Of a stretch of DNA of 30,797 bases, positions 1-29,935 are shown one piece after another; within the stretch, counting starts at the first letter, position 1; each line of letters opens with the position of its first letter. A program made the translations under genes and the position numbers. Source of the DNA: a virus; IMG/VR virus record IMGVR_UViG_3300044645_001103, positions 1-30,797 of that record, one strand, 5' to 3'. The notes beneath the pieces are model-generated. The model saw only the letters and a list, made by a program, of their open reading frames with translations, ran no database searches and was not told where the DNA came from.

Positions 1-123
1 CATTCAGAGCAGCTTGATCGCATGGTTAATGGCCTAATACCTTCTAAAAATGACCTAGGTGCTTGGAAAGCTGCAAAGGACACACTTAATACACATGGAA
101 GAGAAGCGTACGAAAATGGATAA
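1..123 (+). CDS. 3' end of an unidentified upstream phage gene (partial)
   Basis: Frame 1 is open from the first base to a TAA at 121-123 and gives about 40 residues that look like real protein (rich in Lys, Asp, Ala, Leu, ending in a polar REAYENG tail). It ends inside the first codons of the portal gene, overlapping ATG 116 by 8 bases, as is usual for tightly packed phage genes. Position directly before a portal gene suggests the large terminase subunit, whose gene normally sits there, but the visible part has no motif that proves it. The start lies outside the window. Confidence 0.6.
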   Translation, partial: HSEQLDRMVNGLIPSKNDLGAWKAAKDTLNTHGREAYENG

Positions 124-1720
124 TGAACAGTATCAGTATATCTCTGCAAGTTTAAACACGCAAGATGAAAAAGAAAATCCTTTTAGAGATCAAGACCCAT
201 TCAATAAGTCATGGGAGATGCTTAAAGATTTTTCTGGACTAGAACAAAACTTTCGCCGTAGAACAGCAAGAAACCTTAATAAGTTTGCAGATGTAAATAA
301 TGCAGGATATCTAGATTCTGCAAATGTTACACCATCAGGTGTAGATGCTTCATCAAAGCAGATTAATCCTGGAACGGTATACAGAAATGGTTACGGACTA
401 TTTGACGTAATTACTCCTCCATATAATCTATATGAACTTGCAAATTTTTATGATACATCTTTTGCTAACCACGCTGCTATTGATGCAAAGGTTGCAAACA
501 TTGTTGGACTTGGATATTCATTTGAACCAACAGATCGTACTATGCTTTCTTTTGAGGGTAAAGAACAAAGCGCTACAGATAAAGCACGTAAGCGTATGGA
601 AAGAATGAAGCTTGAGATGCGTGACTGGCTAGAAAACCTTAATGATGATGATTCATTTACCAAGACAATGGAAAAGGTTTACACAGATGTTGAGTCCACT
701 GGAAACGGATACCTTGAAATAGGTCGTACAGTAAATGGAGACATTGGCTATGTTGGTCATATACCATCAACAACAATTCGTGTACGTCGTTTGCGTGATG
801 GATACATGCAGATAATTGCACAAAAGATTGTCTACTTTAGAAACTTTGGTGCAACCAATCCTAATCCAGTAACAGAAGACCCACGACCAAATGAGATTAT
901 TCATATTAAGGAGTATTCTCCACTAAACACTTTCTATGGAATTCCTGATATTATTGCAGCACTTCCTTCCCTTATTGGTGATCAGCTTGCATCACAATAT
1001 AATATTGACTACTTTGAGAACAAGGCTGTTCCAAGATATGTAGTAACCTTAAAGGGTGCAAAGCTTTCTGGAGAGGCAGAGGACAAGATGTTCCGCTTCT
1101 TGCAGACAGGCCTCAAGGCACAGTCTCACAGAACTCTTTACATCCCACTTCCTGGAGATACTGACCAAAATAAGGTTGAGTTTAAGATGGAGCCAATTGA
1201 GAATGGTATTCAAGATGGTTCATTTAAGGAGTACCGCAAGCAAAATCGTGACGATATTCTTGTTGCTCATCAGGTGCCAATTTCAAAACTTGGCGGTACT
1301 GACTCAGCAGCAATCGCAGCATCAATTGCACAAGATAGAACATTTAAAGAGCAAGTTTCACGTCCTGCTCAAGGGCACCTTAATAAGGTGATAAACAAGA
1401 TCATTAAAGAAAAGACAGATGTTCTTGAGTTAAAGTTTAACGAACTTACACTTACAGATGAAATCACTCAGTCACAGATTCTGGAAAGATATGTCAAGAC
1501 TCAGGTCATGATGCCAAATGAAGCTCGTGAAGCAATTGGTCTTCCGCAGCATCCAGACGGAGATACTCCATTTGAAATGTCTCCAAGACAAGCAACAGAT
1601 GCTAGAGCAAATGCATCTGGTAACAGAGCAAGAGATACCGAACGAAACAATAGTCAATCTGATGGACCTGCAACCACAACTGGACGCAATCCACAGGGTG
1701 AAGGCAGAGCGTCTCAATAG
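116..1720 (+). CDS. Portal protein (PBSX/HK97-like family)
   Basis: Forms the dodecameric ring at the unique capsid vertex through which DNA is packaged and to which the neck attaches. The 534-aa product has the usual portal length and the typical central pattern: PNEIIHIKEYSPLNTFYGIP (about residues 275-295), then a helix with SQYNIDYFENKAVPRYVV, and later a QVPISKLGGTDSAAIAASIA stretch, as in PBSX-type portals. The C-terminal 50 residues are polar, rich in Arg, Asn and Gly and probably disordered. I chose ATG 116 because the upstream frame stays open to 123 and a GGAAGAGAAG purine run precedes it. ATG 95 and GTG 59 are possible longer starts but have no ribosome site and overlap more. The protease gene with its own promoter follows. 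Confidence 0.9.
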   Translation: MDNEQYQYISASLNTQDEKENPFRDQDPFNKSWEMLKDFSGLEQNFRRRTARNLNKFADVNNAGYLDSANVTPSGVDASSKQINPGTVYRNGYGLFDVITPPYNLYELANFYDTSFANHAAIDAKVANIVGLGYSFEPTDRTMLSFEGKEQSATDKARKRMERMKLEMRDWLENLNDDDSFTKTMEKVYTDVESTGNGYLEIGRTVNGDIGYVGHIPSTTIRVRRLRDGYMQIIAQKIVYFRNFGATNPNPVTEDPRPNEIIHIKEYSPLNTFYGIPDIIAALPSLIGDQLASQYNIDYFENKAVPRYVVTLKGAKLSGEAEDKMFRFLQTGLKAQSHRTLYIPLPGDTDQNKVEFKMEPIENGIQDGSFKEYRKQNRDDILVAHQVPISKLGGTDSAAIAASIAQDRTFKEQVSRPAQGHLNKVINKIIKEKTDVLELKFNELTLTDEITQSQILERYVKTQVMMPNEAREAIGLPQHPDGDTPFEMSPRQATDARANASGNRARDTERNNSQSDGPATTTGRNPQGEGRASQ

Positions 1721-14607: not shown

Positions 14608-15110
14608 TGGCATATTTATTAGATGCAGGGGTGCAGGTATCTTTGACAGGTGCTAATGGCTCATGGCAAAAATTAACAGATCACAATAGAGAGCCAATTC
14701 AAATGTCAGTTGAGCTTATTGAGTCACAGTCAAGAATGGCTAATGGCAAAATGAGAAAATATGTTATTGCTAAAAAAGATAGAATATCAGTATCTTGGAA
14801 GTATGTTCCATCAAAACAATCAGAGTCAGCTGACGGATTTTTTGCTGCTGCATGGCTTGAGTCATTTTATCATTCTAATTCAGATATTCCAATTCATCTA
14901 AAGATAGTCAGCTCAGAGCTTGCTCCAGATCCTGCTATAGGAGTTTTACCAGCTGGTACATTTTATACAGCTCAAACTTCAGCAAATGCAACATCTGCAA
15001 ATGGAGCAAAGACATATGTTGTATACATGACAGACTTTTCTAAAACCATTATTAATAGAACACAGATATCAGACTATGTTGATATGAGTATTGAGTTTAC
15101 GGAGATATAA
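14607..15110 (+). CDS. Distal tail-region minor tail protein
   Basis: 167 aa, starting on a TAATG overlap with the tape measure stop. Strand-rich sequence (YLLDAGVQVSLTGANGSWQK near the start, YVVYMTDFSKTIINRTQISD near the end) and position directly after the tape measure suit a distal tail protein that begins tail-tip assembly. The central part has a YVIAKKDRISVSWKYVPSK strand pair. No decisive family motif; it could also be a tube-like adaptor. Confidence 0.55.
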   Translation: MAYLLDAGVQVSLTGANGSWQKLTDHNREPIQMSVELIESQSRMANGKMRKYVIAKKDRISVSWKYVPSKQSESADGFFAAAWLESFYHSNSDIPIHLKIVSSELAPDPAIGVLPAGTFYTAQTSANATSANGAKTYVVYMTDFSKTIINRTQISDYVDMSIEFTEI

Positions 15111-18100
15111 TGCTCAGTAACGTAAGCTCATCTATATTTGAAAACTCAGACTCAATAGCATTATTGCCAGTAGTATCTGCTGAGTGGAATCATAACTTGT
15201 TTAATCAGCCATACATCACAACTGCAGGAACAGGCTCAAAGATATCTGGAACCCTTACATCTGGTACTGTTTCTGATGCAACAACTGCTGAAGCAAAAGA
15301 AAACTTTACAACAAAAAAGTTTACAATGTCAAGCGGTACTGGATCTGTATCCTACACAGTATCTGGATTATCTGGATCAGCATACAAGATAATTACCTAT
15401 GTAAAAACAAATAGCTCAATGCCAGTTATGCTTAATGCATATGCAAAAGGTTCAGACTCCCAATTTGGTTCTGAGCAAGTAGAGGCAAGCTCTTTAGGAT
15501 GGACAAAGGTTATAACATATATTGGTGGATCAAAAACATCAGGTGCATTTTCTTCTTTTGTATACACTATTAATGCAAATAGATTTGCTGAAGAAACAGA
15601 AAATCCTACAGTGTTTTTTACTTTACCTGAGATATACGAAACAACATTTTTTGATTATCAAAATGGATCACTATTTTCAACAGATAGCGTGTTTACATAC
15701 TTCCGTCCAGGAGAATCTTACGTCTCATCTGGAGATGTAAAGTGTGAATTTCAACCTAGATACAGAAGAATTGCTTCTAAGGTGCTCAACTCAGAAACAC
15801 TTAGCGATGGATTTTTTGGAAACAAGTATATGCCAGTTACTCCAATTATTCAAAACCCTTCATTCTTTCTTTCGTCACCACCAGTCGCAGTTCTTAAGAA
15901 TGCACTTCCTACAGATATAAATCCATATAAGTACTTTGTTTCTGATTCTTCATCAAAGAGTATTTCTGCAATGTATGAAAAGCCATTGACAACTAATAAA
16001 ATTGTTATAAAAGTTAATACACTAATGACTGTCCCAACATTGAATCTGTATATTAATGATTCTTTAATTACTATTGAAGCTGGTACAGCCAATGCAACAA
16101 CATCAATAACGCCAATCGCAAATGATGATGGCTACAATACTGGTGTTATAGTTCTATACTGGACTGGAAGCATTTGGTCAAGAACACCTTGGACAGATAT
16201 GCCACAGTTTGATGTCAATGGATTAATGACTAAAACAACATCAGTAAGTAAGATTAGACTAACTCAAATATCTAGGTCTATTAATTCTGAGTTTACGTCT
16301 TACTCAGGAGATTCTGTTACAAATGATTTAAACAGAATGCAAGTCATAGAAATATCCCCAAGACTAGAACTAAGCTTGTCAGATTTTGTACAAGATATTA
16401 GTATTACAAAATCATTAGATGCAGACAATACAGCTTTGCCAATATCTTCAATTAATTCAAATGATGCAAAGATAACACTTTCAGGTATACCAGTTGTAAA
16501 AAGTGATGGATCTAAGGTTACAATATTTTCAAGTCAAAGTGGTAATGCACTATCTAGTATGCTAAGAAAAAATGTTAAATTATACATTAATTTTTATTTG
16601 ACAACGCATGCCACAGCTGGAACTGTTCCTCCATTAAATGCAAACAAGTATATTCCAGGCGGTGTATTTTATTCAGACTCATGGGAAGAAAATGACATTG
16701 AAACTGTTTCTGTTCAAGCCTACGACATATCTAGATACCTTCAGTCTTTGCCAGTTCCAGACTACGTTGCAAACTTAAAAACGGTATTTGAAGTTATAAC
16801 AAACATATTAGACCTTGCTGGATTTACAGACTATGACTACGACTCACTACATAAGATCTGTAACAACAAAGCACAACCTCTTGACATAGCCTACTACTAC
16901 TGTAATTCAAAAGACACTACCCTTGTTGACGCTTTAAACCAAATGTTCGTAGCTTATCAAATAGGAGCATATATTGATGAGTATGGAATTATGAAGTTTA
17001 TTAGTCTGTATGACATTTTAACTAGTACTGCTGAAGGTTTGGTCATTTCCCAAGAAGACATAGCACAAGGTGGTCTTTCAGTATCAAATAAAGAAAAGCC
17101 AGGAAAGATATCTTTAAGATATCAAACACCAAAGGTAAAACAATCTCCTGCTTTGCAAAATGTAACAGATGTTGATATTAAAAACTCTCCTGCATTTATT
17201 TATACCACATCCAACGATGTTGTTTGGCAGCAACAAACAGTTGACTCTGTTGGCTTTAACTATATAGATGACAATATGACTCAAAATTCTAATACTCTTA
17301 GTATTAATACCAATGACCTGCTTGATATATTCCATACATTCAATATGGACACTAATGGGTATGTTGCAGTAGAAAAAGAAATTATGTCGTTTGAGTATAA
17401 ACAATATACTATTTCAAATACTAGTGGCACAAAATCTACAACTGTGTCCATAAAGAATAGTCTTGAACTAGCTTCACAAATAAACAACTTTATTAAACAA
17501 AATACAATAGGTCTTAGAACAAGTGACGGTAGTGCTGGGCAAAACTATGACTATGATGTAGTGGTAGAGCCAACAGGAAAAATAACTAATGTTCAGCGTG
17601 GAATGTTTGGAACTGTTCCTGCAGACCATAGTAGAGTAACATCTTTATCAAGCAAGGGGTTATTGGAGAAAAGCATCAATGGTTCTTTTGTATTTTCTTC
17701 TAGCACTGGAAAAACATTAATTACTAATAACTCCGATAATAGCACCGTACTTCCAGATGTTGCTAAGATTGGTTTTCGCCCTGAAGGATCTAATAAGATA
17801 GCCGTTTGTCCATCATCTGAAACAAATAATCAGTACAAAACATATTCGGCTAAGTTTGATATACCAGATCAGTATGTCGCAGCAGCTGGACTTTATATTA
17901 ATCAAAGCAGTGTAGGATCCTCTGACCCACTGTTCATAGAATTAATTAAATTTAGCAAGACAAATCCTCAAGGGTTTTTCTTTGATCCACCAGTATACAA
18001 CTACATGATGGCAATATATGATTCATCTCAGCTTTATGCGTATACAGATGTTACTGGAGAGTGCAATAATATTTTAAAAACATTGCCAAGAGTCTTAAAG

Positions 18101-19237
18101 TTTAATCCAGATGCAGATGAAGGAAAACCAAGATATAGCTATGAAACTGACAATGTATTTAACTTAAGGGTTGTTTTAAATACAACTGATGGATCAGATG
18201 GTGAAAATGGATCAGTTAATAATGAAAATACAGCACTTTATGTTTATTTAAATAATAAAGAAATATCTGGATGGCAAGTACCTGATACATCAACTAGTGT
18301 TGCTGATTGGACCGCTCCAAACATTAATACAACAACAGGTATAAGACAAAAGCCAACTGTTCCAGCAACATACTCAGAATCAAAAAGTTTTGGTTTTTAT
18401 GCCTCAGTTGCTCCAAGGGCACTGCCAGGAATATCTTATGAAACTCCTGTTTTTGCTTATTCAGTTGCAAATCTTAGAGAGCTACACGCCACAGAAAAAG
18501 CATTATTTGAAAGAAGTACTTCATACTTTTATCAAGACAGAGAGTTTTTAAATGGTCTTGTTCAAAAGCAACCTCTTTACTCTAACTATCAAACATACCT
18601 GATGCAGACAACTCCAGAGATATCTGGTATTAATTATTATGATGTTCAGTATACAACTCCTGCAGCAGTATCTGTTAATGTTTGGCCTGTTGAGTATATG
18701 CTTTCATATTTTCCAGGTAGCACAAAAGAGCAACAGCAATATAAGCAAAAAAAACTAGTAACCGAAGACTCTTTGTCATATTCAACACCACTGAATACAG
18801 GATTTAGAGCAAGAATGGCCATAGCCAATAATTCACCACATATGGTTATACTAACAAAAGAGTCAGACGAAGTTCAAAGAGTTACTGTAAATCTAAATCT
18901 ATATACTCATGAGATTGTGGCACCATCAGACCCTGAAATTTTAGAGGTAGTAATTGACCCATCTAACATGAGCGAGGTAATACAGCTTGATTCAGAATGG
19001 ATACAGTCAAAGTCTGCTGCCAACAAGATGCTCAAAATAGTTGAAATGGGCATTGATGGCTTTTCTACAACTACAACCTTAAGCATTTTTGGTAATCCAT
19101 TAATACAGGTAGGAGATTTTGTTACTTTGTCTTATGATTTAAATGGTACCAACAACAAAAGAAACATAGTTACATCAGTATCACACAGCTTTAACAATGG
19201 ACTAAACACAACATTGACACTAAAAAGGCTTAGCTAA
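15110..19237 (+). CDS. Large tail hub / minor tail protein with inserted carbohydrate-binding-like domains
   Basis: 1,375 aa. Starts on a TAATG overlap. The region near 550-700 (YVANLKTVFEVITNILDLAG, DALNQMFVAYQIGAYIDEYG, then ISLRYQTPKVK) and the C-terminus (NPLIQVGDFVTLSYDL followed by a VTSVSHSF strand pair) resemble the gp27/Tal-like hub proteins that form the tail tip. Into this frame two strand-rich blocks seem inserted: residues about 50-170 (Ser/Thr-rich, binding-module-like) and about 857-1090 (jelly-roll/lectin-like by pattern, with ETDNVFNLRVVLNTTDGSDG). These could bind cell-surface glycans. Domain limits are estimates. It is followed by a new promoter, so it likely ends the tape-measure operon. 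Confidence 0.65.
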   Translation: MLSNVSSSIFENSDSIALLPVVSAEWNHNLFNQPYITTAGTGSKISGTLTSGTVSDATTAEAKENFTTKKFTMSSGTGSVSYTVSGLSGSAYKIITYVKTNSSMPVMLNAYAKGSDSQFGSEQVEASSLGWTKVITYIGGSKTSGAFSSFVYTINANRFAEETENPTVFFTLPEIYETTFFDYQNGSLFSTDSVFTYFRPGESYVSSGDVKCEFQPRYRRIASKVLNSETLSDGFFGNKYMPVTPIIQNPSFFLSSPPVAVLKNALPTDINPYKYFVSDSSSKSISAMYEKPLTTNKIVIKVNTLMTVPTLNLYINDSLITIEAGTANATTSITPIANDDGYNTGVIVLYWTGSIWSRTPWTDMPQFDVNGLMTKTTSVSKIRLTQISRSINSEFTSYSGDSVTNDLNRMQVIEISPRLELSLSDFVQDISITKSLDADNTALPISSINSNDAKITLSGIPVVKSDGSKVTIFSSQSGNALSSMLRKNVKLYINFYLTTHATAGTVPPLNANKYIPGGVFYSDSWEENDIETVSVQAYDISRYLQSLPVPDYVANLKTVFEVITNILDLAGFTDYDYDSLHKICNNKAQPLDIAYYYCNSKDTTLVDALNQMFVAYQIGAYIDEYGIMKFISLYDILTSTAEGLVISQEDIAQGGLSVSNKEKPGKISLRYQTPKVKQSPALQNVTDVDIKNSPAFIYTTSNDVVWQQQTVDSVGFNYIDDNMTQNSNTLSINTNDLLDIFHTFNMDTNGYVAVEKEIMSFEYKQYTISNTSGTKSTTVSIKNSLELASQINNFIKQNTIGLRTSDGSAGQNYDYDVVVEPTGKITNVQRGMFGTVPADHSRVTSLSSKGLLEKSINGSFVFSSSTGKTLITNNSDNSTVLPDVAKIGFRPEGSNKIAVCPSSETNNQYKTYSAKFDIPDQYVAAAGLYINQSSVGSSDPLFIELIKFSKTNPQGFFFDPPVYNYMMAIYDSSQLYAYTDVTGECNNILKTLPRVLKFNPDADEGKPRYSYETDNVFNLRVVLNTTDGSDGENGSVNNENTALYVYLNNKEISGWQVPDTSTSVADWTAPNINTTTGIRQKPTVPATYSESKSFGFYASVAPRALPGISYETPVFAYSVANLRELHATEKALFERSTSYFYQDREFLNGLVQKQPLYSNYQTYLMQTTPEISGINYYDVQYTTPAAVSVNVWPVEYMLSYFPGSTKEQQQYKQKKLVTEDSLSYSTPLNTGFRARMAIANNSPHMVILTKESDEVQRVTVNLNLYTHEIVAPSDPEILEVVIDPSNMSEVIQLDSEWIQSKSAANKMLKIVEMGIDGFSTTTTLSIFGNPLIQVGDFVTLSYDLNGTNNKRNIVTSVSHSFNNGLNTTLTLKRLS

Positions 19238-19837: not shown

Positions 19838-22800
19838 ATGACATCAAAATATAGAAGCAATAAGTCTGTTGCAAAAAACCCAACTATATCAATTGATGTT
19901 GATGACCCAAGACTCGCATGGGATAAGATAAAACAAACTCTCTCTCGCCAAGGATCAGAAATTGACATCGTTGGTCTTGATGGAAAGCAATTAATTCTTG
20001 GTGGATCAAACTTTAACTCTGGACCAATTAAGTCAGATCCAAATCCAGTAATACCTAAAGTTCCAAAAGTTCCAGGAGTTCCAGTGCCAGGAACACCACC
20101 GCTACCAGTAGAAAATTTAGTTGGTGAATGGGGAGAGTTAGACAGTATTGCATTAACATTTGATTTTGATACAGACAATGATTTGAATTTCTACATACAT
20201 AGATTTTTAGTAAAAGTATATGACGGATCAAGAGATAAATGGTATGAGTTAAGGTCTGGATCTGGATATCTAGCAGCTTTATTTTTAGATACTACAAGTG
20301 TTGAACAAGAATTAACAATAACATCCAATGAACTTCTACAAGCTCTTGGTACTGAGTCTATTATTTCTAACATTACCAAAGTTGCAGTAGCAACAGCAGA
20401 TATATTAAATGTTGGTGAGTATGTTGAAGCAGACATGCCTGAGTATGTATCTCCTCTGCCACAGCCAGTCTTTACATTATCAAAAGGTGTTGATTACTAT
20501 GTTGTGACGCTAGACCCTGAAAATATTGCTTTAGCATTAACCAAAGGATTTTTTGGTGTAATAGTTGAAGAAAACATAACCACAGAGTTAGTAAAAGCAA
20601 ACGTAAGCCTAACTTCTGGATGGAAACAGGCAACTGGTATTACATCTAATAGCACTATAGTTGTTTATGCACCAGACGGACTGCATCGTTGGGTAAGATT
20701 AAGGTATGTAAATTCTAATGGAAGTGATTCTGTATATTCAGACATACTTGACATTACTCCAGATCCATTTCAACCTGGAAATACTGATCCTCCAACACAG
20801 TTTACATCTGCTAGCATTGCTTGGTCAGGAAATGATATACTTGTTTCATTTACTCAGCCAGCAACAAACGCTGGCAATACAGTAAAAGTTAAACTTGTTC
20901 CTTACGTTAATGGTGTAGAAAGCACATCGTTATACGCACACTTTTATCATGTTATTGTTCCGCCAGAAACCTCATTTAAAATTTTATCACTAGATATGTT
21001 TGGACAGTTCAGTGCTTACTATTCAAAATTTAAAGCATATATAACATCGGTTTCAGCTCAAGGAATTCAGACAACTGGATCAGTTATTTCAGCGGGACCA
21101 ATAGAAAGATCTAATCCATTAGCAGCTATATACCCAACCCTTGGAACACCAAATGTAAATACACCTACAGGAGTGTTTAGAGTAACTCCATCTGTTAGCG
21201 GATACATAGTTGATTTTGATTTACCAGCAGGGGCTACTAGGTTAGAGGTTTATGAAAAATCTACCCCATGGACGACCATACCTACAAATGACAATCTTGT
21301 TGTTTATTCAGGATTAAGTCCCGCCAGCATACCGTCAGAAGATAGCAGCGCAAGGTATGTTATAGTTCGCTATTATGACCAGTATGATAATTATTCTTTT
21401 TACAGCATGCAAAAGTCTGGACAAACGGCTGGTGTAGAAGTTATACCAATTGATGTTGGTATGGACTCTTTAATAGAGTTTCCAGTTAAGATATCTACAA
21501 ATGGCTCAATCTTTGCTGGCGCTGGAGACCACACTGTTAATCCTAAAGTGTTTTTTAATAGCTCTGGACTGTTTGCATATGATGCAGGTGGAGTTGCTAC
21601 AACACAGATTATAAATGATGCACTTGCCAACACACCAACTTTCATTACACAAAATGCAAGAATTGCTCAGTGGTCAATAGATAAACAACTTGTTGGAACA
21701 GCTCCAAACCAAACAACAGTAAACTACATACAAAATAATCTTTATGCTACAACTTTAAATAAAAACTATACTGGTATTTCTTCTAATGGAACATATTCTT
21801 TTTGGGCTGGCGCAACTTCATCATTAAATACAGATGGTTTAGCAGAATTTTCGGTAAAGCCAAATGGAGAAGTAGTAGCAAGCAAGATAACTATTAATGG
21901 TAATGGAACAGAAGGTGCAGATTTAATTCGTGCTGGTGGATCAAAGTTTATAGTAACTCAGGATGGAGATATAACTGCAACCTCTGCTACTTTAAGTGGT
22001 AAGCTAACAGTTACACAGCAATCTTATTTTGATTCAAACGTAAATGTTAGAAATGGCTTTATTATTGCTGGTTCAAACGGTCCAAACGTAGGTCCAAATG
22101 TACAGATAGATTCAACAGGCTTAAGTGCACGTGGCTCAGGTTCAATTGGTGTAACAACTAAGATATATGGATCAGCCACAGACCCAATCAATGTAAAAAA
22201 TGCACTTACTGGAGAAACAGATCCTATATCTGGAATTACTTTTTGGACTAAAAAAGCATTGTTTGGATCAACAGAGGGATCTGGATTTATTATCAGTGAT
22301 GGAAAAATACAATCAAATCAAATAATTATTGATTCTGCTCAAGAAAAAATTGCTATAAGGTCTACCAGTAGTAACTCATCTGCAGGAATATTGCTACAAG
22401 CTTCATCAGATACTGGAATAGCAATTGCTGTTGGAAACATAAATACACCATCCAGCGCATCATTTAGGGTAGATTCAACTGGAAAAGTTTTTGCAAGTGA
22501 TGTAGAAGTTAGTGGTGCTTTTACTGTAACTGGAGGTCAACTTGCAACTGATTTAACAGATATTAATAATGATATAGCTACAACTAATACTAATTTAACT
22601 ACAACAAATACTAATGTGACAAATGCCACGAACATAGCAAATTCAAAAGTTAAGACTTACTATGATTCAACCCAACCAACAACTGGTTTATCAGTAGGAG
22701 ATATTTGGTATCACATAGGTAACGGCAACGTTCTAATGAAAAGATGGACTGGATCTCAATGGGTTCTAGCTTCTGACTTTGTATCTGGTAATGGTATTAC

Positions 22801-23392
22801 AGTAGATGAAACAACAAGAGTGGTTACACAGATACAAGCATCTGCAAACCTAGTATTAAAGTCTGGTGGAAGCATTCCAGTTACATTAAATAATCTTGGT
22901 TTACGCATGAACAATGGTGTAAGAGACACTTTATTTTTAGATGCCAGCAATGGAAACGCTACATTTTCTGGAAGTATTCTTGCTTCTACTATAACTGGAG
23001 GAACTGTCCAAACTGGAGATAGTGCTGCAACTAGAAGAATTGTTATGGGGGACTCACAGCCAGACAGAATTGATTTTTATCCAAAAACTGGAGATCAAGC
23101 AAACCTTCCTGGATATCTTTGGGTATCAGATGATAGTGGAAGCCTTACATTGCCAGGCATTGTGTTAACACCACCAACAAATTCTGGATGGACAGGAGGT
23201 CGTGCAAGACTTGCAATGACTCAAACATCTGGTGGTGGAACCATGGACTTAAGAGCTACCATAATTAGGACTTATGGTTGGATGAGTGGACAAAGCGGAT
23301 TCCAAGCAACAAGCCCAGCTTATAGAAATATTTACTCTGGTTCAGATGCTCCGTCGGGTGGGTTAGAGGGCGATGTATACATACAGGTTTAA
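19838..23392 (+). CDS. Tail tip central fibre / receptor-binding protein
   Basis: 1,184 aa. Residues 68-92 form a Pro/Val-rich linker (KVPKVPGVPVPGTPPLP). About 100-300 is strand-rich; 310-415 looks like a fibronectin-III-type domain (DPPTQFTSASIAWSGNDIL). The part near 680-890 has repeated short beta patterns such as DGDITATSATLSGKLTV, common in central tail fibres of lambda J type. A Thr/Asn-rich coiled coil (about 901-937) leads to a compact module with SVGDIWYHIGNGNVLMKRW and a C-terminal Gly/Ser-rich tip (about 1075-1184) that may contact the receptor. It starts 12 bases after the previous stop with a poor ribosome site. Role is inferred from domain style and order. Confidence 0.65.
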   Translation: MTSKYRSNKSVAKNPTISIDVDDPRLAWDKIKQTLSRQGSEIDIVGLDGKQLILGGSNFNSGPIKSDPNPVIPKVPKVPGVPVPGTPPLPVENLVGEWGELDSIALTFDFDTDNDLNFYIHRFLVKVYDGSRDKWYELRSGSGYLAALFLDTTSVEQELTITSNELLQALGTESIISNITKVAVATADILNVGEYVEADMPEYVSPLPQPVFTLSKGVDYYVVTLDPENIALALTKGFFGVIVEENITTELVKANVSLTSGWKQATGITSNSTIVVYAPDGLHRWVRLRYVNSNGSDSVYSDILDITPDPFQPGNTDPPTQFTSASIAWSGNDILVSFTQPATNAGNTVKVKLVPYVNGVESTSLYAHFYHVIVPPETSFKILSLDMFGQFSAYYSKFKAYITSVSAQGIQTTGSVISAGPIERSNPLAAIYPTLGTPNVNTPTGVFRVTPSVSGYIVDFDLPAGATRLEVYEKSTPWTTIPTNDNLVVYSGLSPASIPSEDSSARYVIVRYYDQYDNYSFYSMQKSGQTAGVEVIPIDVGMDSLIEFPVKISTNGSIFAGAGDHTVNPKVFFNSSGLFAYDAGGVATTQIINDALANTPTFITQNARIAQWSIDKQLVGTAPNQTTVNYIQNNLYATTLNKNYTGISSNGTYSFWAGATSSLNTDGLAEFSVKPNGEVVASKITINGNGTEGADLIRAGGSKFIVTQDGDITATSATLSGKLTVTQQSYFDSNVNVRNGFIIAGSNGPNVGPNVQIDSTGLSARGSGSIGVTTKIYGSATDPINVKNALTGETDPISGITFWTKKALFGSTEGSGFIISDGKIQSNQIIIDSAQEKIAIRSTSSNSSAGILLQASSDTGIAIAVGNINTPSSASFRVDSTGKVFASDVEVSGAFTVTGGQLATDLTDINNDIATTNTNLTTTNTNVTNATNIANSKVKTYYDSTQPTTGLSVGDIWYHIGNGNVLMKRWTGSQWVLASDFVSGNGITVDETTRVVTQIQASANLVLKSGGSIPVTLNNLGLRMNNGVRDTLFLDASNGNATFSGSILASTITGGTVQTGDSAATRRIVMGDSQPDRIDFYPKTGDQANLPGYLWVSDDSGSLTLPGIVLTPPTNSGWTGGRARLAMTQTSGGGTMDLRATIIRTYGWMSGQSGFQATSPAYRNIYSGSDAPSGGLEGDVYIQV

Positions 23393-23412: not shown

Positions 23413-26400
23413 ATGCCTTCAGAAATTTTTATTAAAACAGGCTCTAGTTGGGTAGCTGGAAAAGCTAAAAATATTTATATTAAAACAGGCTCTAGTTGGG
23501 CAGCAGGAAAAGCTAAACATGTATGGCTTTACCTTAATGCAGGTTGGACAAGAGTATGGCCCCTATCTGGAATATATGCTACAAGAAATCCATTTATATC
23601 TACAACATCTTCATCAACAGAACTAGCAGATACAACAGTTTTAAGAGTTGGAACAACATATCGTGGTAATAGAGGAACATGGAATCCAAATGGATACACG
23701 ATATCATCTTATCAATATAAGTGGGCAGGGTATTCAGCAGCAAACGATCAAAATCCAATATATGATCCAGCAATGACAACATTTTCTACAACTACAACTG
23801 ATCTTTTAATAAGCGGAACCAACTATGATAAACGATGGATATCTTTTTTTGTAACTGCAAAAGCATCTGGAGGAACAGCATATGATGGATCAGCAGAATC
23901 ATTTAGATATTATGTTGTTAGACAAAAACCACGTATATCTGTAGATCCATCTTTAAATAATCTAGATCCAAAAGTTAACGACGTAATAACTTACTCTTCT
24001 TCATGGGATACATCTGATGCATATAGACCAGAAGCAGCAAGAACATTGATTGTTTGGTATAGAAATACTACTGCCTCTTTAACAGGGGCAACAATAGTTA
24101 AGTCAAACTTAGGAACAGCATCTGGAGCCTATAGCTATACTGTAGCTTCTGCAGATGCAAATAACTATATAATTGCACAAGAAACAACTTTTAATTCTGG
24201 ATCTGATTATGAACTAGGAAGCTCAGTAGGAGTTTCTGCAAGTGTAGCAACAAATAGTACTGTGGCTGTAAAGCCTGCTGCTCCAACATCATTAACAGCA
24301 ACATCAAATAGAACTGATGGAGTTCAACTAACTTGGAGCGCAGTATCTGGAGCAAATTATTATGAAGTTTATTACCAAAGCTCACAGGGAACTGGACCAG
24401 CTAATCAATCATCATTTGCAGACTTTGGACAGGATAACTCAATAACAACAAATTCTTTTTTAGATACAACAATTACAGAAGGATCTACAAGGTTCTATCG
24501 TGTTCGTGCTAGAATATCAGCAACTGCAACTGCAACAAATAACTCAGACTGGTTTCCAGCACCAGCATCAAATGCTATATCTGGAACAAGGTTAGCTATT
24601 ATCCCAGCAACACCAACCAACTTAACTGGATCAGCAAACGGTTTTGGAGACTCTCAAAGCATTTCTTTATCTTGGGACGCTGCAACTAATGCTGAAACAT
24701 ATGAGCTATACTATAATGGAACTGGAACAGCACCATCTGCGAACACAGTGCCAGATTATGGTGTATTTCCTTTAATAACTACCAACTCTTTTACAACACC
24801 AATTGTTTTTAGTAAAGGTACAACATATTATTGGTGGGTTAGGTCATCAAGGTACTCAGGATCAAAAAGTGATTGGAGCCTAGTAAAGGCAATAACAACA
24901 AACGCAGTGACAATTAGTGGTATATCTATTTCAAATACAACAACTGCACCTGGCTCTGCAACAAACATATCAGTCTCTAATACAGCACCATCTAACACTG
25001 GATCTGTTTCGTGGACAAACGGATCTAACACATCTGCTGCAGGCTTATTCACTGTATCTGGTTCTGGATCTGGAGGATCGTCACCGACAAACCCATCATC
25101 AGTATCAACTACTGGAAGCTTTACTGTTATATCAACAGGAACAGCAAACATAAGTATTAGAGCTATTAATACCAATAAAACAGTTGCAGTTTCATGGTCA
25201 CAAGCAAACGCAAAAAGTTACAGAATACTTTATACTATATCTGGTGTTCCAGGCACACAAACAGCAAATGGAAATTCTTCAGATGCTAATCCTTCTGTAG
25301 TAATTGGAACATCTGCAAATACCTTTACAATTACCAATATCACTGTCTATTCTGAATTAAATCAGACTGGTAGTTCAACAACTCTATCAGCACCAGCTGG
25401 AACATCAGCTACAGGAGCAGACCGAATAACAGACACAACATCTTCGGGATCTGTTACATATACAGCACCAGTAGTTGCTCCATCTGGAGGTACAGCATCA
25501 GTTGATCCTACAACTGGAACTGCTGGTACTACACAATTTACAGCATCAACATCTGGTTGGAGTGGTACTGCTCCAATAACATATACATATTCTTGGCAAT
25601 GGCAGAATACTAGTGGTAACTGGAATCCTGTTGCAACTGGAACAACATTTACTCCAACGGTAGCACAAAATGCTTCAGCAATTGCATGGAGAGTTGTAGT
25701 TACAGCAACAAACTCTGCAGGAAGCAACACAGCATCTGCAACCTTTACAGTTAATAACCCACAAATTACATATACTTTTTCTTTGGGTAATAGAATAAGC
25801 GTATCTACTAATGGCTATATAAGCTTAGGAACCTCCAGTGCAGTAACTGCTAATACGGCAGATGCAGTAACTAGTACGACTGGACTAGTATTTGCTGTAA
25901 TGCCAAGAGATATGCAACAAACTTCTTTACACTATTTTGGAGATTCAGCCTCATATGTTGTAAGGTGGAAAGGTCATCAATATAACGTTCCTGCAAATAT
26001 AATGGAATATGAAGCAAAGTTTTATCCAGGACAGCAGTATGCTGATATGTTTGTTATAACTAGATTTGTGGTTCAAGATAATGCTTTTGCATTTGTAAAT
26101 GATGGATCTGCTATAACTAGTTATCCAGTTACTCCAACTCAAAGCAGTAGATACCGTGTTAATTTTAATTCATCTGCCCCAACAAGCCTTCCTGGAGGAT
26201 ATTCACCAAGAGCTACTTCAAACATGCTTCTTGCCACACAACCAGCAAATACTGATATTGGAGAAACAACACTTATTACTGCAGTAACTGCTGCAACTCC
26301 ATTCTTCCCGCCATTTTTCCCTCCATTCTTCCCGCCATTCTTCCCTCCATTCTTTGGTGCAAGTCCGTTCTTCCCTCCTTTCTTCCCTCCTTTCTTCCCT

Positions 26401-26769
26401 CCATTCTTCCCACCATTCTTCCCATTCTTCCCTCCATTCTTCCCTCCATTCTTCCCTCCATTCTTCCCACCGTTCTTCCCTCCATTCTTTGCTGTTGCAG
26501 GACCAACAATTTCTAGTGTTACAGCTAGTAACATAATTAGGACTGGAGCAGTTATAACCTGGACTTCTACTGGTCAGGCTTCATACTTAATTACAGTTTC
26601 TCCTTTCGCAAGTCCAAGCGGAGCCACTGGTGGTTCCACCGTTAGAAGTAGACAAGTTACTGGAGCAACCCGTTCAACACAATATACTGTTACTATAACT
26701 GTTTACTCAGGTTCAAATCAGACTGGAACCTCAGCATCAAACTCAGTAACCTTTACAACATCTGCTTAA
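23413..26769 (+). CDS. Giant tail adhesin with FN3/Ig-like domains and a pure Pro-Phe repeat tract
   Basis: 1,118 aa. Residues 5-36 are two 16-aa repeats (IKTGSSW), a theme seen at the start of tail fibre proteins, with a third degenerate copy. Then strand-rich domains (56-285), two fibronectin-III-like domains (about 288-395 and 395-495), another FN3-like unit (about 586-665), an Ig-like domain (687-780), and a domain with ISVSTNGYISLG (about 786-950) resembling nidogen-type domains. Residues 963-1026 contain only Pro and Phe apart from one GAS, in FFPP repeats. The last 90 residues form an FN3-like domain related to the 586-665 unit. It probably sits at the tail tip and binds the host surface. 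GGTG at 23402-23405 is a weak ribosome site. What the repeat does is unknown. Confidence 0.75.
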   Translation: MPSEIFIKTGSSWVAGKAKNIYIKTGSSWAAGKAKHVWLYLNAGWTRVWPLSGIYATRNPFISTTSSSTELADTTVLRVGTTYRGNRGTWNPNGYTISSYQYKWAGYSAANDQNPIYDPAMTTFSTTTTDLLISGTNYDKRWISFFVTAKASGGTAYDGSAESFRYYVVRQKPRISVDPSLNNLDPKVNDVITYSSSWDTSDAYRPEAARTLIVWYRNTTASLTGATIVKSNLGTASGAYSYTVASADANNYIIAQETTFNSGSDYELGSSVGVSASVATNSTVAVKPAAPTSLTATSNRTDGVQLTWSAVSGANYYEVYYQSSQGTGPANQSSFADFGQDNSITTNSFLDTTITEGSTRFYRVRARISATATATNNSDWFPAPASNAISGTRLAIIPATPTNLTGSANGFGDSQSISLSWDAATNAETYELYYNGTGTAPSANTVPDYGVFPLITTNSFTTPIVFSKGTTYYWWVRSSRYSGSKSDWSLVKAITTNAVTISGISISNTTTAPGSATNISVSNTAPSNTGSVSWTNGSNTSAAGLFTVSGSGSGGSSPTNPSSVSTTGSFTVISTGTANISIRAINTNKTVAVSWSQANAKSYRILYTISGVPGTQTANGNSSDANPSVVIGTSANTFTITNITVYSELNQTGSSTTLSAPAGTSATGADRITDTTSSGSVTYTAPVVAPSGGTASVDPTTGTAGTTQFTASTSGWSGTAPITYTYSWQWQNTSGNWNPVATGTTFTPTVAQNASAIAWRVVVTATNSAGSNTASATFTVNNPQITYTFSLGNRISVSTNGYISLGTSSAVTANTADAVTSTTGLVFAVMPRDMQQTSLHYFGDSASYVVRWKGHQYNVPANIMEYEAKFYPGQQYADMFVITRFVVQDNAFAFVNDGSAITSYPVTPTQSSRYRVNFNSSAPTSLPGGYSPRATSNMLLATQPANTDIGETTLITAVTAATPFFPPFFPPFFPPFFPPFFGASPFFPPFFPPFFPPFFPPFFPFFPPFFPPFFPPFFPPFFPPFFAVAGPTISSVTASNIIRTGAVITWTSTGQASYLITVSPFASPSGATGGSTVRSRQVTGATRSTQYTVTITVYSGSNQTGTSASNSVTFTTSA
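23425..23520 (+). repeat. Two 48-bp tandem repeats (16 aa each) at the start of the adhesin gene
   Basis: Units 23425-23472 and 23473-23520 encode residues 5-20 and 21-36; the proteins differ at three positions and the DNA shares a long identical stretch centred on ACAGGCTCTAGTTGGG. A degenerate third unit (VWLYLNAGWTRV) follows. The near identity suggests recent duplication. Confidence 0.85.
26299..26490 (+). repeat. 12-bp coding repeat giving a (PFFP)n tract
   Basis: Sixty-four codons with unit CCN TTC TTC CCN. Translation: five PFF units joined by double Pro, then GAS, five more, then one dropped Pro codon, then six more: 16 Phe pairs in all. No charged or polar residue except the Ser of GAS. 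Pro codons vary (CCA, CCT, CCG), while Phe is TTC in 29 of 32 cases. The coding strand is nearly all pyrimidine. A 12-base unit lets slippage change length without breaking the frame. Confidence 0.95.
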
Positions 26770-28411: not shown

Positions 28412-28719
28412 TGGCTGAACGCAAAGACCGTATGGCTTTGCTTAGTAGATACTCAAAATTGCATACAGCAAAGTACGAGCAAAAGCCATCTTTAAATTTA
28501 AATGTTGAGCAGTGGGCAGCAGACGGACTCATTGAGTCATATGGAATGTCACAATGCTATGACTTATTAGACTATTACTTTTCTGTTGCACAGGAAGCAA
28601 GCTGGAACTATTTTGCATATAACGCAGAAAAGATTCTTAATGGTAAACTAGATGTAGAGCAAGATCTAAAAGAAAGACAAGAGCGCAGGGCTAAAGCAAA
28701 GGAGTGGCTAAGTGAATAA
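28411..28719 (+). CDS. Small helical protein before the helicase, possible replication accessory
   Basis: 102 aa. Entirely helical by pattern: GLIESYGMSQCYDLLDYYFS and then EASWNYFAYNAEKILNGKLD, followed by a Lys/Arg/Glu-rich tail. Aromatic-rich helices with this shape occur in small replisome partners, for example DnaD-like and loader proteins, but this match is weak. It starts on a TAATG overlap and ends inside the start of the helicase gene (8-base overlap), so the three proteins are probably made together. A helicase-loader role is only a guess from position. Confidence 0.6.
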   Translation: MAERKDRMALLSRYSKLHTAKYEQKPSLNLNVEQWAADGLIESYGMSQCYDLLDYYFSVAQEASWNYFAYNAEKILNGKLDVEQDLKERQERRAKAKEWLSE

Positions 28720-29935
28720 TACGGAAGCTAAAGTAATTTCAGCGGTATTACAAGATAAACAACTTCATGTACTGCTGCAAGCTAACGTAGAGACATTACT
28801 TAGAACACATAACGATGTATGGAACTTTATTCGCCTATATGCTGAAAACAATGGAACAGTTCCACCATCATCCTTAGTTGTAGAAAAGTTTAGAGATTTT
28901 GAGATTCTTAAAGATGTTGGTGCAACAAAGCATCATCTAGAAGAGTTACAGTCTGAGTACTTAAATGATAGCCTAAAAGATATTTTACGATCTGCTGCAA
29001 CAGAAGTCCAAGGTGGACAAGGTGTACAAGCACTTGAAGATCTAATTACTAAGACATCAACACTAAAGAAAAACACATCTTCTATTCGTGACATTGATGC
29101 AACAGATATTGATTCTGCTATTGCATATTTTGAAAATGTTAAAGAGCAGCAAGCACTTGGAGTTCGTGGTATTAAGACTGGGCTTCCAGGATTTGATAAC
29201 TATCTACCTTCTGGAATTATGCCTGGACAGCTAGGAGTCTTTTTAGCTTACCCTGGTATAGGAAAGTCATGGATGGCTCTGTACTTCGCTGTACAGGCCT
29301 GGAAACAGGGTAAGACACCACTTATTATCTCCCTTGAGATGAGTGAAACAGAAGTTCGTAATCGTGTATTTACAATTATGGGTGAAGGACTTTGGTCTCA
29401 CCGTAAGATGTCCAATGGTGAAATAGAGATTGACATGCTAAAGAAATGGCATACAGACAAGATTGATGGTCGCCCACCTTTCCATATTATTTCTAACGAC
29501 TCTGGCGGAGAAGTAACTCCATCTGTTATTCGTGGAAAGCTAGATCAGTATAAGCCAGACTTTGTTGTAGTTGATTATCTTCAGTTGATGAGTCCAAACC
29601 AAAAAGCTGATAACGAAACGGTAAAGATGAAGAATCTATCTCGTGAATTAAAGCTTATGGCTATCAGTGAAGAAGTTCCTATCATCGCTATCTCATCTGC
29701 TACACCTGATGATGTAAAGGACATGTCTACTGTTCCTACTCTTGCACAGACAGCTTGGTCAAGACAGATTGCTTATGATGCTGACTGGGTTATGGCTCTA
29801 GGTCGTGCTAGCAATAGCGATATTATTGAGTGTGCCTTTAGAAAGAACCGTAATGGTTTTATGGGAGACTTCCTAGTACAGTGTGACTTTGATAAGGGCT
29901 ACTATCGTTACAAGGACTTTGAAGATGGTAAGTAA
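28712..29935 (+). CDS. Replicative DNA helicase (DnaB-like)
   Basis: 407 aa, somewhat short for DnaB. Unwinds DNA at the fork as a hexamer. The RecA-like core shows Walker A AYPGIGKS (179-186), DnaB-type GIKTGLPGFDNYLPSG just before it, SLEMSETEV after it, and Walker B DFVVVDYLQLM (283-293). Then SRELKLMA and IAISSATPDDV follow, and near the C-terminus DADWVMALGR with CAFRKNRNG, typical of this family. The N-terminal 120 residues are a helical, poorly conserved domain. GTG 28712 follows AAAGGAG with a 7-base gap. The primase begins before this gene ends (11-base overlap). Confidence 0.9.
   Translation: MNNTEAKVISAVLQDKQLHVLLQANVETLLRTHNDVWNFIRLYAENNGTVPPSSLVVEKFRDFEILKDVGATKHHLEELQSEYLNDSLKDILRSAATEVQGGQGVQALEDLITKTSTLKKNTSSIRDIDATDIDSAIAYFENVKEQQALGVRGIKTGLPGFDNYLPSGIMPGQLGVFLAYPGIGKSWMALYFAVQAWKQGKTPLIISLEMSETEVRNRVFTIMGEGLWSHRKMSNGEIEIDMLKKWHTDKIDGRPPFHIISNDSGGEVTPSVIRGKLDQYKPDFVVVDYLQLMSPNQKADNETVKMKNLSRELKLMAISEEVPIIAISSATPDDVKDMSTVPTLAQTAWSRQIAYDADWVMALGRASNSDIIECAFRKNRNGFMGDFLVQCDFDKGYYRYKDFEDGK

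Follow-up and report, generated by a model that had tools for sequence, protein, structure and literature searches.

What is a ribbon made almost wholly of phenylalanine and proline doing in what is probably a phage tail adhesin? The question is raised by a viral record of 30,797 nucleotides, IMGVR_UViG_3300044645_001103 of IMG/VR, whose whole 30.8-kb stretch is referred to here as the window.

A patterned Phe-Pro tract in a probable tail adhesin

The tract lies at 26299..26490 on the plus strand and corresponds to residues 963-1026 of a 1118-aa protein (23413..26769, plus strand). Translation and a codon count confirm the original prediction of 64 Pro/Phe codons interrupted by a single GAS, with 32 Phe, 29 Pro and one Gly-Ala-Ser. 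The 16 predicted Phe pairs are present and fall into three blocks (5, 5 and 6), but the claim that Pro pairs separate them holds only in part: the GAS marks the break between blocks 1 and 2, and at the junction of blocks 2 and 3 a single Pro takes the place of two. Tandem Repeats Finder describes the DNA as 15.8 copies of a 12-bp period with 81% matches, and the same grammar is found in relatives. Given the composition of the adhesin itself, the chance expectation of FFPPFFPPFF is about 4e-12 per protein. The tract is uncharged throughout and aromatic, and it had no match among PDB sequences. Its Phe codons are TTC in 29 of 32 cases, whereas the phage background favours TTT (195 TTT vs 46 TTC in seven other genes), a bias with p=2e-16 against a background that includes the rest of the ORF; TTC also prevails across all tracts collected (2926 TTC vs 480 TTT). 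This preference may reflect avoidance of slippage on T homopolymers.

The tract-bearing protein is probably a tail adhesin, as had been proposed, because its gene follows those of the tape measure and minor tail proteins and because it contains weak FN3-like modules. It is encoded two genes past the minor tail protein that marks the family (phrog_10359; 15110..19237, plus strand) and downstream of a 1184-aa protein that synteny identifies as a probable tail fibre protein (19838..23392, plus strand), and its position is syntenic in relatives. In some relatives elsewhere, the tract protein comes after Mtd_N proteins. The N-terminus of the adhesin contains a 48-bp near-perfect tandem duplication (23425-23517) that encodes IYIKTGSSW-AGKAK.

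The domain before the tract (25750..26298, plus strand) is 75-76% conserved in the nearest relatives and matches no family. It had been described as nidogen-like, a reading left without support by a Pfam scan of residues 710-962, which gave no NIDO/nidogen match; the AlphaFold2 model of this region is of low confidence. The C-terminal domain (26491..26766, plus strand) had been called FN3-like, and here the two lines of evidence diverge: Pfam fn3 scores 14.7 bits, below the 25-bit cut-off, whereas AlphaFold2 models strands at model residues 253-336, mostly with pLDDT 70-88, and this predicted beta sandwich is compatible with a fibronectin type III fold. Within the tract, structure prediction was uninformative: the model had no secondary structure there (pLDDT 44-61), and the alignment was shallow (8 sequences). 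No Pfam match to the intramolecular chaperone Peptidase_S74 was found in the window adhesin; in one relative (L051), this domain scores above the cut-off downstream of the tract.

The window phage family and its probable hosts

With the minor tail protein as query, 78 related loci were gathered. FFPP is present in about 12 of about 40 syntenic adhesins of this family, so the finding that would have counted against the observation, related adhesins without any such region, applies to some and not to others: the remainder have another proline repeat or, in many cases, no repeat. Several adhesins (L225, L164, L167, L193, L171 and L226) hold (PPVYYA)n, (VTPPYF)n, (TPPV)n, (PTPTPV)n or TFVIPP in the same slot. 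Where FFPP is present, the number of blocks varies among relatives that are 75-76% identical nearby.

The hosts of the window family are probably actinobacteria, since WhiB, an actinophage marker (PMC10202952), is encoded in the large relatives (7 of the 7 family records of at least 76 kb that were scanned for it, the window not being among them), and since the lineage markers of the window are nearest to Streptomyces phages. These are the portal protein (59..1720, plus strand), 45-47% identical to that of large Streptomyces phages, and the DnaB-like helicase (28712..29935, plus strand), 38% identical. Across the wider set, WhiB was detected in just 18 of 40 records tested, and the tract is therefore probably not bound to a single envelope type.

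Occurrence, grammar and selection of FFPP tracts

The tract type recurs well beyond the window, as the search that had been recommended for it shows: an exact scan of IMG/VR for FFPPFFPPFF returned at least 119 loci, with the longest tracts among the loci listed reaching 142 residues. Many uncultured lake viruses of bacteria carry adhesin-like proteins with a strictly patterned Phe-Pro tract. Because differently coded copies occur in well over 100 separate viral contigs, as well as in closely related versions of this gene, the tract is real and not an artefact of assembly. We found no phage paper with the FFPP motif in the open-access literature (PMC).

Among 84,980 bacterial and archaeal genomes (257 Gb), there were 28 matches, and only four of these loci are phage-like (L134, L140, L149 and L151). 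A bacterial origin of the tract was considered and rejected, the other cellular matches being mostly short chance or antisense reads. One cellular protein of 108 aa, from Marinithermofilum abyssi (L147), has the C-terminus FFPPFFPPFFPIFPFFGPPFFGPFWW, a possible independent aromatic-proline tail.

Outside the window family, the commonest tract protein has about 300 aa and consists of a basic N-terminus, two FN3-like modules, the tract and a short, sometimes Cys-rich, C-terminal end; other tract proteins terminate in PPxFK. In four loci (L015, L063, L038 and L048), the tract protein continues into a Hint-like sequence (C..EDTLI), which in L048 matches Pfam Hint_2 weakly (18.4 vs 28.4 bits).

In 140 ORFs, F precedes every one of the 1818 proline runs within the tracts, and one position earlier stands F, Y, H or W, giving FF, YF, HF or WF; the proline runs have a length of 1 or 2, and 11 of the 1818 are longer. 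Between neighbouring units, 1383 codon changes are synonymous vs 225 nonsynonymous, the latter all at the first position, the only one free to vary when a unit is defined as xFPP. The protein sequence of the tract is kept while its DNA drifts, and selection is thus at the protein level. As a protein element under selection in phage tail adhesins, the tract follows the grammar [F/Y/H/W]-F-P or [F/Y/H/W]-F-P-P, repeated. It differs from collagen, which requires Gly at every third residue (one Gly in 64 residues here), and from plant extensins and hydroxyproline-rich glycoproteins with their Ser-Pro(3-5) glycomodules, the proline runs here being of 1-2 residues and always after F.

The tract gene heads an oxygenase cassette

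The FFPP gene heads a conserved cassette of 6-10 2OG-Fe(II) oxygenase genes (PF13640) and a DUF6065 gene; in Pfam searches, most members of the array were 2OG-Fe(II) oxygenases, together with one DUF6065 and one SDR. In large relatives from the window family, a second FFPP protein stands at the head of the array. The gene order tract-A-D-A-B-C-F-G-J-H-K-L recurs across divergent phages, and a second cassette lineage has the order tract, C, C, A, B, followed by several E-class genes. The array genes belong to the 2OG-Fe(II) oxygenase superfamily, with PF13640 over the cut-off and the iron ligands HxD...H (HxD and a distal His), which are kept in classes A, C, E, F, G, H, J and L.

Five array enzymes were searched against the PDB, of which four gave matches and one none. 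The best relative of three of the four is the prolyl-4-hydroxylase of B. anthracis, and for the fourth a PKHD-type hydroxylase ranks first; prolyl-3-hydroxylase, LH3 and PKHD hydroxylases appear behind or beside prolyl-4-hydroxylase (P4H). These matches cover short stretches, with E-values from 3e-6 to 6e-3. The tested enzymes are thus P4H-like by sequence, mostly nearest to bacterial prolyl-4-hydroxylase, and their activity is a prediction. The array oxygenases are only 22-38% identical to cyanophage oxygenases, and the isolated phages of INPHARED gave no match to a 341-aa FFPP protein or to DUF6065.

DUF6065 (for example, L041:5843-6541) has at least 570 viral relatives in IMG/VR, and no paper on it was found in the open-access literature (PMC). 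Its model (pLDDT 82) shows a beta fold like that of dUTPases, with E 3e-5 in Foldseek, and with Z about 9 and rmsd about 3 at 10-13% identity. A function derived from this predicted fold was set aside, the likeness being one of fold only.

Association of tract and array

PF13640 was detected in 48 of 50 FFPP viral records vs 4 of 50 records with Thr-Pro (TP)n tracts (Fisher p=6e-21, contigs being non-independent samples, and the control being matched by tract type and not by habitat). At least six PF13640 copies were present in 37 of the 50 FFPP records, and DUF6065 exceeded its cut-off in 42 of 50 vs none of the 50 controls. A further control with a random 16-mer comprised 10 contigs only and was left out of the family counts.

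The association also holds in the reverse direction. Starting from the first oxygenase, with the tract not used in the search, we found a same-strand tract gene upstream in all 44 testable loci among those listed, which form one clade; the corresponding search with DUF6065, in a broader set, gave 45 of 48. The DUF6065 proteins of the cassette have identities down to 24% and fall into 7 clusters at 50%, and this divergence indicates that the association is old and not the product of a single recent clone.

Within the window family, among the records of at least 76 kb, the tract is present in 4 of 4 with the array (G027, G029, G032 and G039, with seven or more oxygenases) vs 0 of 5 without it (G017, G023, G033, G038 and G041, with 0-2 oxygenases; p=0.008). 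One of the former, the near-complete G027, has the array and the cassette tract, but its syntenic adhesin lacks FFPP. Having a proline repeat is not enough for the array to be present, since G038 encodes (PPVYYA)n without any oxygenase. PF13640 was not found in the 30.8-kb window record, and among the incomplete relatives several encode an FFPP adhesin alongside no oxygenase or just one.

Other partners of the cassette were considered. In a few cassettes (for example, L234:18004-18720 and L034:5885-6520), the FFPP gene has a collagen-repeat protein beside it, but such a neighbour was rejected as the true substrate because it occurs in few loci, with collagen-like neighbours in 6 of 71 loci vs 6 of 84 in the control. 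A transferase of PF11397, to which the Skp1 hydroxyproline GlcNAc-transferase of Dictyostelium belongs, adjoins one cassette (L237); hydroxyproline-GlcNAc glycosylation was discarded as a general step, with PF11397 in 4 of 50 FFPP records vs 8 of 50 controls. Strong PF11397 GlcNAc-transferases (E 1e-55 to 1e-65) are encoded by several large (TP)n phages, G097, G104, G113, G124, G126, G127 and G138.

Proposed function of the tract and alternative explanations

Because the tract is inherited together with a row of 6-10 genes for oxygenases akin to prolyl hydroxylases, it probably belongs to the virus surface in a chemically modified form. We regard it as reasonably probable that the tract, the most likely substrate of the phage 2OG-Fe(II) oxygenases, forms a hydroxylated, extended, host-contacting stretch of a tail protein, with substrate, chemistry and role all deduced from sequence and gene content. 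Phage-encoded oxygenases of the prolyl-hydroxylase type would hydroxylate the tract prolines before virion assembly, perhaps position by position along the F-P tract, and the array might also hydroxylate its phenylalanines. Hydroxylation would turn a very hydrophobic stretch polar and extended on the tail, where the modified tract would be an unfolded, multivalent part of the host-contacting protein; we infer its exposure on the virion, the identity of the modified residues and the role in host contact. For the window phage, the adhesin would be the substrate, and the enzymes would be encoded beyond the 30.8-kb fragment, because near-complete relatives carry the array beside a second FFPP protein. 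If this is true, phages that are apparently common in lakes would have a surface chemistry of a new kind.

A bolder form of this proposal, tentative and in our view somewhat doubtful, is that the FFPP core is densely modified at different Pro and Phe atoms by the 6-10 non-redundant oxygenases together with the SDR and DUF6065, as a counterpart of multi-enzyme peptide tailoring. Through dense modification, a tract that would otherwise be insoluble would acquire a polar chemistry facing the host, of a sort so far not known from any virus.

The array may instead act elsewhere, on the host surface, a nucleotide, a lipid or another virion protein, with its link to FFPP being that of a shared host-interaction module. 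Besides proline, 2OG oxygenases modify further residues as well as small molecules and nucleic acids, and a gene neighbourhood names no substrate. Structural genes, namely those of Mtd_N proteins, are also close to the array; cyanophage S-H9-1 has 2OG oxygenases near its tail fibres and no such tract in the stretch checked; and lineages such as L074 have other genes between the tract and the first oxygenase. We nevertheless consider another target unlikely, given that the tract gene keeps its position at the array head while the remaining neighbours vary, that the association is reciprocal (44/44 and 45/48), that tract presence tracks array presence within the window family and that the tested enzymes are P4H-like.

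It is less probable still that slippage produced the tract as a fast-growing proline spacer with a passive role, interchangeable with several other low-complexity repeats. Such a spacer would fit the variation among syntenic adhesins, in which the FFPP position holds (PPVYYA)n, (VTPPYF)n, (TPPV)n, (PTPTPV)n or no repeat, and likewise the differing block numbers between close relatives and the lack of secondary structure in the AlphaFold2 tract model; the exact grammar with mostly synonymous changes, the TTC codons in a TTT-rich background and the tight link to the oxygenase array all speak against it. An unmodified aromatic-proline ribbon inserting into a host lipid or mycolate layer, for which the probable actinobacterial hosts and the wholly uncharged, aromatic tract could be cited, is very improbable, as His and Tyr substitute for Phe, WhiB in only 18 of 40 records points to more than one envelope type, and the near-perfect link to a prolyl-hydroxylase-like array implies a more polar tract and favours a modified one over a bare Phe/Pro ribbon.

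Comparison with known systems

In Chlorella virus PBCV-1, proline repeats are collagen-like or of other kinds. This virus has a prolyl-4-hydroxylase and viral proteins with hydroxyproline, according to Eriksson et al. 1999 as cited in PMC9301287. The likeness we propose is that of a virus encoding both a P4H-fold enzyme and its own repetitive proline substrate. The FFPP phages differ in that they infect bacteria, carry 6-10 oxygenase genes of several classes and predicted activity in a fixed array, and would present a substrate with an FF-PP grammar instead of collagen-like or other proline repeats.

The pairing of collagen with P4H, P3H1 and LH3 is similar in that a repetitive, proline-rich fibre protein is matched with several 2OG oxygenases of related fold, but the FFPP tract has no Gly at every third residue and is composed solely of Phe/Tyr/His/Trp and Pro. 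Proline repeats such as (PTPTPV)n and (TPPV)n in adhesin stalks share with FFPP the slot in the syntenic adhesin, whereas viral records bearing (TP)n rarely encode oxygenases (4/50) and never DUF6065 over the cut-off (0/50).

P4HA is among the most abundant auxiliary metabolic genes of phages in Baltic pelagic viruses, where its viral use 'remains cryptic' (PMC9301287). The enzymes of the FFPP arrays are probably of the same kind, and here they are physically linked to a candidate substrate. The FFPP tract is thus a candidate answer to the question of which substrate phage-encoded prolyl hydroxylases act on, and a linked, strictly patterned candidate of this kind makes the cryptic use of P4H-like genes in aquatic phages directly testable.
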